From NCBI GenBank assembly GCA_021785115.1, contig JAJYGO010000144.1:1-8595 (forward strand): DNA of 8,595 nt, given 5' to 3'. The DNA is from Chloroflexota bacterium (GTDB lineage Bacteria; Chloroflexota; Limnocylindria; Limnocylindrales; CSP1-4). The notes under the pieces are model-generated. The model did no database searches and had not been told where the DNA came from. It was given only the letters and a program-made list of their open reading frames with translations. The translations under genes were made by a program, and so were the position numbers. Shown piece after piece: positions 1 through 4,769 of the stretch (position 1 is the first letter of the stretch; each line of letters begins with the position of its first letter).

Positions 1-291
1 GCCGCCGACCGCGGGATCCTGATCTGCGGCTCGGGCGTGGGCGCCTCGATCGCGGCCAACAAGATGCGCGGGGTCCGGGCGGGCCTGTGCCACGACACGT
101 ACTCGGCGCACCAGGGCGTGGAGCACGACAACATGAACGTGCTCACGCTGGGCGCCCGCGTGATCGGGATCGAGCCCGCGCTGGAGTGCTCGCTCGCGTT
201 CCTGGGCGCGGTGTTCTCCGGCCAGCCGAGGCACCAGCGGCGCCTCGACAAGGTGCTCGCCATCGAGGCTGCATCGATGGGAGGGCGCTGA
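1..291 (+). CDS. rpiB: Ribose-5-phosphate isomerase B, C-terminal part (5' end outside window)
   Basis: This open frame runs in from the left edge and ends at TGA 289-291, so about 96 C-terminal codons of a family usually near 150 residues are visible. RpiB interconverts ribulose-5-phosphate and ribose-5-phosphate in the cytoplasmic pentose phosphate pathway. The visible segment begins with the family motif [17 protein letters not shown], whose Cys is the catalytic residue of E. coli-type enzymes. It continues with [23 protein letters not shown] (the conserved His region) and near the end RHQRRLDK, matching the Arg pair that binds phosphate. Having the Cys distinguishes it from the mycobacterial type, which lacks it. 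The GTG at 37 lies inside the conserved core and is not the start. Its position before zwf fits a pentose phosphate cluster, although 391 non-coding bases separate the two genes. Confidence 0.95.
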
Positions 292-307
292 AGGTCGCTC
301 AGGGGTG

Positions 308-323
308 GTCGCCGCCCGGCGAC
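308..323 (+). terminator. Hairpin 17 nt after rpiB stop, possible weak terminator
   Basis: GTCGCC (308-313) and GGCGAC (318-323) form a perfect 6-bp GC-rich stem around a GCCC loop, starting 17 bases after the rpiB stop. No T run follows, so intrinsic termination is doubtful. In a genome this GC-rich such a stem can also arise by chance. Confidence 0.3.
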
Positions 324-360
324 GTCGTGATCGGTCGGCGGCACTTCGGCTCGCGCCCGC

Positions 361-513
361 TGGCGCACCCCATGCGCCAAATCTCGCTCGGGGCATTGTC
401 CCATGGGCCTTTCGGCGCACGCCATGCACCATTCGGGGTCAATGGTGCTCGGGGTGCGCCAAGCGGGGCGGATTCGAGCGACCCGAGGCGGAATTGGCGC
501 ATGGGCTGCACCA
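361..513. repeat. 153-base imperfect palindrome made of four 19-base units
   Basis: The stretch is an inverted repeat centred at base 437; paired positions sum to 874. The best-paired blocks are 369-380 with 494-505 (12/12), 387-392 with 482-487 (6/6), 414-420 with 454-460 (7/7) and 426-433 with 441-448 (8/8). The outermost pairs reach 361/513 with scattered mismatches. Each arm contains two copies of a unit close to GGCGCACSCCATGCRCCAW: 362-380 and 414-432 on the plus strand, and 442-460 and 494-512 on the minus strand. The copy pitch is 52 bases in both arms. The outer left unit is itself a small palindrome (TGGCGCA 361-367, TGCGCCA 373-379). No transposase, coding signal or convincing target-site duplication is seen. 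It could be a REP/MITE-like element, a multi-site protein-binding array or a structured RNA leader; the function is unknown. Confidence 0.8.
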
Positions 514-543
514 CTCGCCCGGTGGAGGGCCCGGTGGCCAGAC

Positions 544-563
544 GCCCCGATCCCGCTCGGGGC
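544..563 (+). terminator. Perfect 7-bp stem hairpin, possible terminator or leader structure
   Basis: GCCCCGA (544-550) pairs perfectly with TCGGGGC (557-563) around a 6-base loop. It lies between the large palindrome and the candidate zwf -10 box. The bases after it (TGCCGTG and on) are not T-rich, so an intrinsic terminator ending rpiB read-through is possible but unproven. Confidence 0.3.
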
Positions 564-593
564 TGCCGTGCGTCGCTGTTCAGCGAGCGGGCC

Positions 594-599
594 TATCCT
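594..599 (+). promoter_or_regulatory. Candidate -10 box upstream of zwf
   Basis: TATCCT fits the TANNNT -10 pattern. Transcription from it would start near 606, giving a leader of about 77 bases before the zwf ATG at 683. No good -35 hexamer is visible at 16-18 bases spacing, so this is a weak motif-only call. Confidence 0.3.
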
Positions 600-682
600 C
601 TAGCCGAAACGGCGGCCGACGAGACCGCTGCCGCCGCCCGGAGTGTTCCCATGCCAAGCCGCCACGTCGGGACCGCATAACG

Positions 683-2512
683 ATGGCGCGCACGAAGCCC
701 GATCCGGCCACCACGCCGACGAGTACGGGCCCGGCGAGCGAAGCCTCCGCCATCCCGCTCCACGGCACGGTCGAGACCCCGCCGGCCACCGAGCCCGGTC
801 CTCGCGTCGTCGATCCCAGCGTCCCGGTCGGCGAGCCGCCGGTCGGCCCCACGGAGCCGCTGGTGCCCGCCAGCGAGCCGCTGACCCCTGCGTCCGCGCC
901 GTCCCCGCGCAAGGACGCGCCCCGGACGATGCGCGACCTTCGGCTGGCCACCGAGGCCCGGCGCCGCTCGACCACGCCCAGGGCCGCCGACAACCCGCTC
1001 CGCGAGGGCCTGCGCCTCGAGCGCGTGCCGGACCCCCACATCTTCGTGCTGTTCGGCGCCACCGGCGACCTCGCCCACCGCAAGGTGGTCCCTGCGCTCC
1101 ACCAGCTCTGGCGCACCCACCTGCTGCCCCACGAGTTCACGCTGGTCTGCGTCGGGCGGCGCCCGTACACCGACGAGGCCTTCCGCGACGAGCTCAAGGC
1201 CTCGCTGGCCAAGTTCTCGCGCTCGCAGCCCATCGACCGCGAGGCGTGGGACGACATGGCGTCGCGGATCACGTACCACCGCGGCGACTTCAACGACCCC
1301 GCCGCGTACGCCGCGCTCGCGGACCACCTCGACACGATCGACCTCGCTCACGGAACGCGCGGCAATCGGCTGTTCTACCTCGCCACGCAGCCGTCGGCCT
1401 TCCCCGAGATCATCGCCCAGCTCGGCCATGCCGGCCTCGACCACGAGCACCACGACGGAGGCTGGCGGCGCGTGGTCATCGAGAAGCCGTTCGGGCGCGA
1501 CCTCGAGTCGGCGATCCGGCTCAACCGGGAGGTGGGCAAGGTCTTCCGCGAGCGGCAGGTCTACCGCATCGACCACTACCTGGGCAAGGAGACGGTCCGC
1601 AACCTGCTGGTCTTCCGGTTCGCCAACGGCATCTTCGAGCCGATCTGGAACCGCCGCCACATCGACCACGTGCAGATCACCGTGGCCGAGTCGATCGGGA
1701 TCGAGGGCCGCGGCGCCTTCTACGAGGAGACCGGCGCCAGCCGTGACTTCCTGCAGAACCACCTGCTCCAGCTGCTGAGCCTGGTCGCGATGGAGCCGCC
1801 GGCCACGTTCGAGGCGGACGCCCTCCGCGACGAGAAGGTCAAGGTGATCCGGGCCATCGCCGAGATGACGCCGGCGCAGGTCCGCCGCGACGTCGTCCGC
1901 GGGCAGTACGGCCCGGGCTGGGTGTCGGGCAAGCCGGTCGTGGGCTACCGGCAGGAGCCGCACGTCGATCCGGAGTCCGAGACCGAGACCTTCATCGCCG
2001 CCCGCCTGATGATCGACGACTGGCGCTGGTCGGGCATCCCGTTCTACCTGCGGATGGGCAAGCGGCTGCCGAAGCGCGCGACCGAGATCGCGATCCAGTT
2101 CAAGGAGGTCCCGCACCAGCTGTTCCGGGACTCTGCGGCCGACCCGGAGCCCAACCTGCTCGCGATGCGGATCCAGCCCGACGAGGGGATCATGCTGCGC
2201 TTCGGCGCCAAGGTCCCGGGGCTGGGCGTGGACGTCCGGAACGTGACCATGGACTTCACGTACGGCTCCGCGTTCCAGACCGACTCGCCTGACGCCTACG
2301 AGACGCTGATCCTCGACGCCCTGCTCGGCGATGCCTCGCTGTTCACCCGCGCCGACGAGGTCGAGGAAGCCTGGTCGATCGTGGACCCGATCATCGCCGC
2401 CTGGGCCGAGGAGGGGTCGCCTGACTTCCCGAGCTACGAGGCCGGGACCTGGGGGCCGGCGGTCGCGGACGACCTGCTCGCCCGGGAGGGCCGGCGGTGG
2501 CGGAGGATCTGA
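683..2512 (+). CDS. zwf: Glucose-6-phosphate 1-dehydrogenase with long N-terminal extension
   Basis: Oxidises glucose-6-phosphate to 6-phosphogluconolactone with reduction of NADP+ (or NAD+), the entry step of the oxidative pentose phosphate pathway. The product from ATG 683 is 609 residues, against about 490-510 for the family. Residues 1 to about 118 are a Pro/Ala/Thr/Ser-rich, probably disordered extension. The Rossmann fingerprint FVLFGATGDL is at about 121-130. VVIEKPFGRD follows, then the signature RIDHYLGKE at 295-303. QNHLLQ carries the expected catalytic base His360, 62 residues after His298, the same spacing as His178/His240 of the Leuconostoc enzyme. The C-terminal half is complete. 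The start was chosen because codons from 683 have the high GC3 of a coding region while those just upstream do not. No clear SD precedes it. An internal ATG at 929 would give a more typical 527 residues. Only one Cys (156) is present. The stop overlaps opcA. Confidence 0.96.
   Translation: MARTKPDPATTPTSTGPASEASAIPLHGTVETPPATEPGPRVVDPSVPVGEPPVGPTEPLVPASEPLTPASAPSPRKDAPRTMRDLRLATEARRRSTTPRAADNPLREGLRLERVPDPHIFVLFGATGDLAHRKVVPALHQLWRTHLLPHEFTLVCVGRRPYTDEAFRDELKASLAKFSRSQPIDREAWDDMASRITYHRGDFNDPAAYAALADHLDTIDLAHGTRGNRLFYLATQPSAFPEIIAQLGHAGLDHEHHDGGWRRVVIEKPFGRDLESAIRLNREVGKVFRERQVYRIDHYLGKETVRNLLVFRFANGIFEPIWNRRHIDHVQITVAESIGIEGRGAFYEETGASRDFLQNHLLQLLSLVAMEPPATFEADALRDEKVKVIRAIAEMTPAQVRRDVVRGQYGPGWVSGKPVVGYRQEPHVDPESETETFIAARLMIDDWRWSGIPFYLRMGKRLPKRATEIAIQFKEVPHQLFRDSAADPEPNLLAMRIQPDEGIMLRFGAKVPGLGVDVRNVTMDFTYGSAFQTDSPDAYETLILDALLGDASLFTRADEVEEAWSIVDPIIAAWAEEGSPDFPSYEAGTWGPAVADDLLAREGRRWRRI
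2485..2489 (+). promoter_or_regulatory. Shine-Dalgarno for opcA, inside zwf
   Basis: GGAGG within the 3' end of zwf lies 7 bases before the GTG at 2497 and decides that start. The 16-base overlap with zwf implies translational coupling, which would keep the two partner proteins in balance. Confidence 0.75.
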
Positions 2513-3919: not shown

Positions 3920-4723
3920 ATGACCCAGCCCACGCTGTCGATCGTCCCCACCGCGGCCGACGTCTCCCCCGCGGGAGCCGAGTTCATCGTGAACACGCTC
4001 GCATCTGCGCTTCGGGAACGAGGCGTGGCGCACTGGTGCACGACGGGCGGGTCGTCGGCGCCCGGGATCTACCGGGCGCTTCGAGCGGCGCCGCTGCGCG
4101 ACGCCCTGGACTGGTCGCGTGTCCACACGTGGTGGGGCGACGACCGGTTCGTGCCCGCGGGCGACCCGCTCTCGAACGTCACGTCGTTCGACGATGTGCT
4201 CCGCGAGCCTGGCGTTGGGCTGTCGATCCCCGACGCGAACGTGCACCGGGTGCCGGTGGCCGAGGCGATGGCCGGGGGCGGCGGGCCCGACGGCGCGGCG
4301 GCCGCGTACGAGGCCGAGCTGCGGGCGGCCGGCCCGGCGGCAGGCCTGCTCCGGCCGGCGGCGCGGCGCGACCACCCCCTGCTCGGGGTGCCCGCGTTCG
4401 ATCTCGTCATCCTCGGCGTGGGCCCGGACGGCCACATCCTCTCGGTGTTCCCGGGGTCCTTCGTGTTCGACGTGCCGGGCTGGGTGGCCTCCGTGCCCGC
4501 GCCCACCCACGTCGAGCCGCACGTGGCGCGGGTGACGATGCACCCGAAGCTGGTGCAGGCCGCGCGCTCGGTGCTGGTGGTGACGGCGGGGGCGTCCAAG
4601 GCGGACGTGCTGGCGGCGGCCTGGGCCGGCGGCGACCCGCGCAACCTGCCGCTGCGGACGACGCTGGCGGCGAACGCCACATGGCTGCTGGACGAGGCGG
4701 CGGCGGCACGGCTCCCGGGCTGA
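3920..4723 (+). CDS. pgl: 6-phosphogluconolactonase (Pgl/NagB-like fold)
   Basis: Hydrolyses 6-phosphogluconolactone to 6-phosphogluconate, the step after Zwf. The product is 267 residues, a normal family length. Motifs in order are TTGGSSAPGIYRAL (41-54, the phosphate-binding loop, canonically SGGSTP), WWGDDRFVPAGDPLSN (71-86, canonically DER.VP....SN), GVGPDGHILSVFPGS (166-180, with the presumed catalytic His172), the HVARVTMHPKL segment (201-211) and a C-terminal NLPLRTTL...WLLDEAAAARL. A Gly/Ala-rich insert at about 117-150 separates the second and third motifs. It is the third gene of the zwf-opcA-pgl set, 79 bases after opcA and with its own strong SD. The stop TGA (4721-4723) lies inside the first copy of a 15-base tandem repeat. 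Confidence 0.95.
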   Translation: MTQPTLSIVPTAADVSPAGAEFIVNTLASALRERGVAHWCTTGGSSAPGIYRALRAAPLRDALDWSRVHTWWGDDRFVPAGDPLSNVTSFDDVLREPGVGLSIPDANVHRVPVAEAMAGGGGPDGAAAAYEAELRAAGPAAGLLRPAARRDHPLLGVPAFDLVILGVGPDGHILSVFPGSFVFDVPGWVASVPAPTHVEPHVARVTMHPKLVQAARSVLVVTAGASKADVLAAAWAGGDPRNLPLRTTLAANATWLLDEAAAARLPG

Positions 4724-4769
4724 CGGCTCCCGGGCTGACGGCTCCCGGGCTGACGGCTCCCGGGCTGAC
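4710..4769 (+). repeat. Four perfect tandem copies of a 15-base repeat over the pgl stop
   Basis: The unit GGCTCCCGGGCTGAC occurs at 4710-4724, 4725-4739, 4740-4754 and 4755-4769 without mismatch. Because 15 is a multiple of three, the TGA of pgl is repeated in frame at 4721, 4736, 4751 and 4766. Each unit carries the self-complementary CCCGGG, so neighbouring copies can pair as 6-bp stems in RNA. The array may have grown by slippage and could slow or end transcription, but no T run follows. Confidence 0.95.

Follow-up and report, generated by a model that had tools for sequence, protein, structure and literature searches.

The window, i.e. the whole stretch of 8,595 nucleotides of Chloroflexota DNA that was analyzed, carries the 3' end of rpiB followed by zwf, opcA, pgl and other genes. 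The region between rpiB and zwf contains an array of palindromic units, which begins approximately 70 bases past rpiB and ends 170 bases ahead of the zwf ATG. The features are:

1..291, plus strand: 3' end of rpiB (PF02502, 9.5e-32)
361..379, no strand: dyad 1, TGGCGCACCCCATGCGCCA, 0 mismatches to TGGYGCAN5TGCRCCA
380..412, no strand: spacer 1, 33 bases, poorly conserved among arrays
413..431, no strand: dyad 2, CGGCGCACGCCATGCACCA, 1 mismatch, 52 bases from dyad 1
432..442, no strand: central linker, 11 bases, start-to-start step of 30
443..461, no strand: dyad 3, TGGTGCTCGGGGTGCGCCA, 1 mismatch
462..494, no strand: spacer 2, 33 bases, poorly conserved among arrays
495..513, no strand: dyad 4, TGGCGCATGGGCTGCACCA, 0 mismatches
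683..2512, plus strand: zwf, glucose-6-phosphate dehydrogenase (PF02781 and PF00479)

Each of the four 19-base units in 361-513, which start at 361, 413, 443 and 495 and follow each other in steps of 52, 30 and 52 bases, is itself a dyad of the type TGGYGCA-N5-TGCRCCA. Compared to TGGYGCANNNNNTGCRCCA, the units at 361-379, 413-431, 443-461 and 495-513 carry 0, 1, 1 and 0 mismatches, respectively, and the arms 361-392 and 482-513 of the overall inverted repeat are 81% complementary. The original prediction had described a 153-base palindrome of four units with a 52-base pitch at this intergenic site. The palindrome was borne out with unit ends shifted by one base, and pitch and position agree with the unit starts and the called genes. 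The number of units was likewise correct. What it overlooked is that each unit is a dyad, so that labels such as forward and reversed mean little for a single unit. Shuffled-sequence statistics, which had been named as a check, favor a genuine array. Nine matches to TGGYGCANNNNNTGCRCCA with up to three mismatches were found as compared to 2.27 expected, a number reached in 0 of 200 shuffles. When window positions 1-1500 were scanned blindly for arrays of four symmetrically placed 19-base dyads, with each of the two spacings allowed to vary between 25 and 79, the best-scoring array was the one starting at 361 with steps 52/30/52. It reached 44 of 48, while the best of 20 dinucleotide shuffles of the same region reached 39.

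To look for related arrays, 23 genomes were searched with a two-dyad pattern (dyad-33-dyad) alongside a reversed control. This yielded 11 forward matches and no control match in genome G001; further matches occurred in G002 (2; control 1), G006 (2) and G015 (1), and G003 and G005 gave one control match each. A looser version of the pattern detected 28 forward matches in G001, 7 in G002 and 2 each in G005 and G009, with no control match in any of these four genomes, as well as one each in G006 and G015, i.e. matches in 6 of 23 genomes; lone or paired control matches appeared in G003, G006, G010, G017, G019 and G023. No separation from the control was obtained in the search for single dyads with up to one mismatch (forward/control: G001 10/25, G002 24/19, G003 5/22, G004 6/16, G005 10/29), and the signal is separable by the two-dyad geometry only. 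A covariance model built from 11 arrays and run over the 23 genomes, with both strands of an array listed, detected many loci in both G001 and G002; the yield in G003, G004, G005 and G009 was lower. At E ≤ 0.1 some match, many of them marginal, was present in 20 of 23 genomes.

Full arrays share the geometry of the window's array. Over 14 tabulated arrays, steps of 52 (25 times), 30 (nine times), 31 (five times), 51 and 53 bases (once each) were counted, and the middle step was 30 in nine arrays and 31 in the other five. One turn of the DNA helix comprises about 10.4 bases. Steps of 30-31, 41-42, 51-53, 62-63 and 72-73 bases hence correspond to approximately 3, 4, 5, 6 and 7 turns. The dyad letters differ by genome: TGGCGC and TGGTGGC in G001, TGGTGAC in G002 and G005, TGATGC in G003 and G004, where locus L229 of G004 carries TGATGC..GCATCA at 52/30/52 as in the window, and TGGGGAC in G009 with steps of 41, 51 and 52. 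Spacers of non-orthologous arrays from two relatives have a mean identity of 0.36 (sd 0.09, maximum 0.58, 304 comparisons). The genome search suggested by the original prediction thus uncovered many dispersed intergenic arrays in relatives, with genome-specific dyad letters. In one locus (L159, 2971-3445) the array has grown to approximately nine dyads, mostly in 52-base steps and with similar spacers, which has the look of tandem amplification. Two contigs of G001 (C33 and C86) terminate within one array (L163 1-199 and L167 1-116). Several arrays lie at contig ends, where assemblies seem to break, and copy numbers may therefore be underestimates.

For analysis of genomic position, 55 array loci were fetched, of which 50 were entered together with the window; dropped were L167, which covers the opposite end of the L163 array, L186 with its single dyad, and L183, L184 and L241, which lack a clear chain. 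Genes were called by a codon-usage caller trained on the window genes, and, with the window set aside, 86% of the sequence surrounding the 50 loci falls within called genes. Nevertheless, 50 of the 51 loci are intergenic, and the exception, L228, is a weak match within a reading frame that was later handled as a false positive. The remaining 49 loci (without the window and L228) lie between tandem (25), convergent (12) or divergent (6) genes or at a contig edge (6), i.e. the arrays have no promoter preference. The 30 adjoining proteins that were scanned are mostly unrelated housekeeping enzymes, including pyrroline-5-carboxylate reductase, prephenate dehydratase, an ilvD-type dehydratase, citrate synthase, PolA, LepA, a SOR/SNZ (pdxS-type) protein, TrpA and a class II tRNA synthetase, among others; Pfam gave no match for a few of the 30.

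A second dispersed family consists of GTCG..CGAC dyads. A three-dyad pattern at 42/63 detected 16 forward matches in G002 and 6 in G001 with no control match. In six other genomes it gave 2 in G005 (control 1), 1 each in G004 and G022, 0 forward and 3 reverse in G010, 0 in G006 (control 1) and 0 in G003. All 20 fetched loci are intergenic. In 19 of them, four dyads follow the 42/63/42 spacing and deviate at 0-4 of 32 positions, while L324 has 7 mismatches. In G002, two arrays of this kind are those upstream of L277 and L278, which are genes of the protein family described below. CGTC is present at the left end of 54 of 72 GTCG-type dyads, at the right end of 48 and at both ends of 33, and CGTC or GACG occurs within approximately 8 bases of 16 of 55 window-type dyads.

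Three pairs of GTCG loci are syntenic between G001 and G002, and the spacers of two syntenic pairs have identities of 0.64, 0.48 and 0.68 and of 0.80, 0.85 and 0.80, as compared to 0.50 (sd 0.10). Nine G002 sites were also sought in four relatives, and five were comparable. The syntenic intergenic regions were too short for an array in several cases: 106 bases in G003 and 142 in G004 versus 430; 137 in both G003 and G004 versus 385; 159 in G005 versus 359; and 92 in G005 versus 228. At the 228-base site, the array scan gave 44 (null 39) for G001 and 45 (null 42) for G003. The edges of array-less regions could not be aligned to the base, and neither a target-site duplication nor a base-exact empty site was found at the compared syntenic sites. 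Around L333, none of the relatives had an intergenic region that scored higher than its null, and at L327 a remnant in G001 is visible by eye (scan 40, null 42-44). At the L329/L362 site there is a hint of a switch from a GTCG array to one of the TGGC type (scan 42, null 41; spacers 0.48, 0.65 and 0.63). Locus L355 (G005 C2), which is syntenic to L322, carries CACAACC..GGTTGTG dyads where G002 has a GTCG array.

Comparison among the fetched loci of the first family revealed 11 groups of syntenic sites bearing an array in at least two genomes: L157-L178, L158-L180, L160-L181, L163/L167-L179, L165-L230, L172-L177, L175-L219, L220-L223, L233-L234, L164-L218-L236-L232 and L159-L217-L185-L224-L231. 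Long spacers compared at three of these sites have identities of 0.58 and 0.58 (L158-L180), 0.64 (L157-L178) and 0.73 (L163-L179), against the mean of 0.36 for non-orthologous arrays. In L158-L180 and L163-L179 the dyads are GGC..GCC in one genome and mostly GAC..GTC in the other. Homologous spacers combined with differing dyads indicate that the dyads changed in place. Owing to length differences of one or two bases, central linkers at orthologous sites have low identities (0.09 and 0.20). L224 and L159, both from G001, are 84% identical copies of one region with TGATGC and TGGTGGC dyads, respectively; judging from these sequences, G001 may be a mixed bin or carry a duplication.

Pairing was enriched when dyads were pooled over genomes, both within units (78.7% versus 70.5%) and between units (76.3% versus 66.9%). 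This enrichment arises because motifs are genome-specific, and pooled counts cannot tell within-unit from between-unit hairpins. Therefore, half-sites were compared within genomes. Among 80 GTCG dyads (60 from G002, 20 from G001; L324 and L341 left out), the arms were complementary at position 5 in 54% as compared to 57% after reshuffling (p 0.81), and in G002 alone in 47% versus 52% (p 0.885). Similar results were obtained for position 6 of TGG dyads in G002 (0.53 versus 0.54, n=19 dyads) and position 3 of TGGTGGC dyads in G001 (0.51 versus 0.53, n=37 dyads). Position 7 of the GTCG dyads had a weak pairing excess (pooled 0.51 versus 0.42, p 0.029; G002 alone p 0.072, G001 alone p 0.234). Complementary changes that keep the stem paired are accordingly present between genomes and absent between units of one genome. 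Strong coupling of the arms would be expected from a cruciform or an RNA stem. The independent variation of the arms within a genome suggests half-sites read by a dimer, and the dyads look like protein-dimer sites rather than hairpins.

A candidate for this dimer is encoded at the syntenic site L164/L218/L236/L232, where the gene adjoining the array codes for an XRE/HTH protein of approximately 249 residues. In the three pairs with L164, the side of the HTH gene is 69-74% identical and the other neighbor 85-90%. The recognition helices and adjacent dyads are DRGTVSRIE with TGGCGC (L164), DHGDLSRIE with TGGTGGC (L222 and L218), DHALLSRIE with TGGTGAC (L236) and DQSVLSQIE with TGATGC (L232). HTH_3/HTH_31 scored above the gathering score in 4/4 family proteins scanned, and the best matches of a fold search were the Cro/C1-type proteins C.AhdI and C.BclI. 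The HTH filled the list of this search, and a homologue lacking it (P0035) was therefore modelled. The model (pLDDT 90.5) predicts an alpha-beta-beta-beta-alpha-beta core resembling PD-(D/E)XK, a fold shared by XisH and NucS/EndoMS. The nuclease-like domain model aligned (VIA-align) to XisH and a repair endonuclease; Foldseek gave no match to this domain at E ≤ 0.001 (best E 0.013). With regard to the acidic active-site motif D...(D/E)xK or a variant of it, residues E113, D125, E140, E149, Q151 and K158, the putative catalytic residues among them, are invariant in 59/59 family proteins, and residue 142 is Q in 31, H in 24, E in 3 and L in 1, never K. The second domain is thus predicted to be PD-(D/E)XK nuclease-like.

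Family matches at E ≤ 1e-5, many to the HTH only, were obtained in 19 of 23 genomes, and 251 of 7997 candidates scored were assigned to the family at E ≤ 1e-10. The family is rich in paralogs, with many per genome and differing arrays. PADLOC and NCBIfam matched mainly the HTH, and no match exceeded an NCBIfam cut-off. For several TGGTGAC arrays of G002 a partner with matching helix is missing; the sole close homologue (80%, next best 47%) has a TGGTGGC-type helix.

Next, the regions upstream of family genes were scanned for arrays (up to 450 bases, four equal dyads, 255 geometries) in 29 of 44 gene loci; outside the scan were L292, L293, L298-L305 and L307-L311 (contig edges or HTH-only matches). 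In 15 of the 29 regions, a four-dyad array scored at least 3 above the best of 20 block shuffles, in each case with its own dyad and with 42/62-63/42, 42/53/42 or 52/30/52 as best geometry. The other 14 did not pass (L275, L276, L280, L282, L285, L286, L287, L290, L291, L294, L295, L296, L236 and L232). In L236 and L232, which belong to the type group of the window, arrays are visible but irregularly spaced. This fixed-geometry scan with shuffles replaced an earlier detector, which had found at least four similar dyads in 7/40 family loci versus 3/72 control loci (N runs left out). At locus L292 (3423-3655), four GGTCCGCC..GGCGGACC-type dyads are spaced at exactly 72/72/72; they lie upstream of another XRE gene, whose match to the family is confined to the HTH.

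For 17 gene/array pairs (the 15 passing ones plus L236 and L232), motif similarity correlated with recognition-helix similarity with a Mantel r of 0.46, a value reached by 0/2000 permutations, and the partial correlation after removal of C-terminal-domain similarity was 0.37 (again 0/2000); some pairs are close paralogs, so that the points are not fully independent. Like helices accompany like dyads also across genomes, as exemplified by VDAAFLGRI, which occurs with CTGGACT in G001 (L272) and with TGGAC in G005 (L283). At the level of sequence, recognition helix and dyad co-vary.

Taken together, the array of the window is probably one copy of a dispersed four-dyad element bound by dimers of a fast-evolving XRE-HTH/PD-(D/E)XK-like protein, for which the candidate is known from relatives. 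Each dyad would most likely be occupied by one dimer, and the four dimers, which would sit on the same side of the helix at distances of approximately 5, 3 and 5 turns, could join into one complex. Arrays ahead of the protein's own gene might serve autoregulation. Copies elsewhere, including that of the window, behave like REP repeats with a dedicated protein, being intergenic and indifferent to function or orientation of the adjoining genes. They are gained and lost between species and yet persist for long at many sites, changing sequence in step with the protein.

The main rival of this REP/RAYT-like reading accepts the same sites and the same protein, but assigns them a role in the service of the host: a nucleoid-organizing or global regulator that bridges or loops DNA, with a merely structural nuclease-like domain. 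The long-lived syntenic sites, at which dyads track the motif of the genome while homologous spacers drift, as well as the helical phase of the dyads and a placement like that of autoregulation would fit such a role. The lack of promoter bias, the unrelated neighbor genes, the invariance of the putative catalytic residues, the many paralogs per genome with differing arrays and the absence of arrays from syntenic sites of relatives speak against it, and we consider it rather unlikely, though a serious contender.

Far less probable is a REPIN or BIME proper, in which a RAYT (HUH/Y1) transposase would work on single-stranded hairpins to move the element. The original prediction had proposed a REPIN/MITE-like repeat, and the dispersed intergenic copies agree with it, as do short plus long spacers and co-evolution with a dedicated neighbor protein, which PMC2817692 describes for RAYTs. 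Its mechanistic part finds no match: the Y1/RAYT transposase domain PF01797 was detected in 0/8 genomes (MAGs, which may be incomplete), while a control search matched in 5/14, and the arms do not covary within a genome. The one-sided GTAG tag is likewise absent, since GTAG/CTAC lies within approximately 8 bases of 2/55 window-type and 0/72 GTCG dyads.

REP/BIME/REPIN elements with their RAYT (TnpA-REP) are, according to PMC2817692 and PMC3116915, dispersed extragenic palindromes of species-specific sequence and maintained palindromy, coupled to a dedicated, fast-evolving and co-evolving protein. The arrays described here differ in their partner, which combines an HTH with a PD-(D/E)XK-like domain, and in their fixed four-dyad geometry of near-whole turns with independent arms. 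GTAG-/CGTC-tagged REPs resemble the GTCG-type dyads, which often have CGTC at an end; in PMC3733652 the tag marks one end and takes no part in pairing, whereas CGTC lies inside the dyad here, and frequently at both ends. T. roseum is a Chloroflexota species. GTAG-23 elements are reported for it in PMC3733652, and tagged REPs therefore exist in the phylum.

XRE autoregulators, such as restriction-modification C proteins, HipB, which has four operators, and SaPI1 Stl, share a Cro/C1-type HTH and several operator dyads ahead of their own gene. For SaPI1 Stl, four operators for two Stl tetramers are described in PMC9638917. The system reported here differs by its nuclease-like second domain, whole-turn four-dyad geometry and genome-dispersed arrays; in the open-access literature, among the matches listed, no XRE regulator with several operators has dispersed arrays or a nuclease-like domain.

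Still less probable is an operator for pentose-phosphate control. Its location before zwf and the dimer-type dyads in whole-turn phase match the multi-dimer operator of the original prediction, but a link to the pentose-phosphate pathway is not supported, as arrays adjoin unrelated genes and, among the zwf relatives L001-L005, a dyad with up to one mismatch precedes zwf in L002 alone. L002 aligns to window positions 1-296 and again from 485 on, with the middle part absent; dyad 4 with its outer flank (5822, TGGCGCATCGGGCGCGCCA) is the sole part of the array that is kept. Close relatives thus differ by gain or loss of the element at the rpiB/zwf site. With window positions 297-640 as query for DNA similarity, five short matches were obtained in 4 of 14 genomes, none of them an array. 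Absence of the unit from relatives, which had been named as an argument against its significance, is found at this site in most near relatives and does not extend to the rest of their genomes.

An equally small chance is left for an RNA element of the zwf leader, either a structured RNA or a terminator. Positions 340-530 fold more stably than shuffled versions (z -2.63; 4/200 equally stable) and pooled pairing is enriched, but any palindrome folds well, and arrays also lie between divergent and convergent genes. A search of 8 sources against Rfam gave nothing at E ≤ 1, the arms do not covary within a genome, and this proposal of the original prediction is disfavored. Chance or an assembly artefact was ruled out for practical purposes: GC-rich palindromes are common in GC-rich DNA such as this window, but shuffles fall short and 52/30/52 recurs in other arrays.

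Since the pairing of four-dyad arrays with XRE-HTH/PD-(D/E)XK-like proteins is explained by none of the families tested, it is filed here as a new kind of couple, REP/RAYT-like in its presumed working and composed of unrelated parts. In the open-access literature, we found no record on palindromic repeats in Limnocylindr- nor on interspersed intergenic palindromes in Chloroflexi, and, among the matches listed, including passages of PMC12306157, no such protein/array couple. A wider proposal, which we put forward tentatively and would not bet on at even terms, holds that several such protein families exist per genome, each with its own population of whole-turn four-dyad arrays, and that the protein might cut or protect its arrays and in this way copy or maintain them, with array and recognition helix evolving in step. 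Such a couple could be selfish or domesticated; it would be analogous to REPIN/RAYT and have arisen independently.

The couple adds a dispersed-repeat system with a likely partner that sequence is enough to identify and that is no Y1 transposase. Moreover, it amounts to a natural experiment on how protein and DNA co-evolve: arrays that are orthologous occupy the same chromosomal sites and have homologous spacers, their dyads switched in concert between close relatives, and the recognition helices of paralogous HTH proteins switched as well. Joint change of a site population and of protein specificity is testable with more than 12 protein/array pairs, and the question why bacteria keep repeat populations becomes directly testable. 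Elsewhere in the window, a perfect 15-base tandem repeat (ACGGCTCCCGGGCTG, four copies) occupies 4708-4767, at the 3' end of pgl and just beyond.
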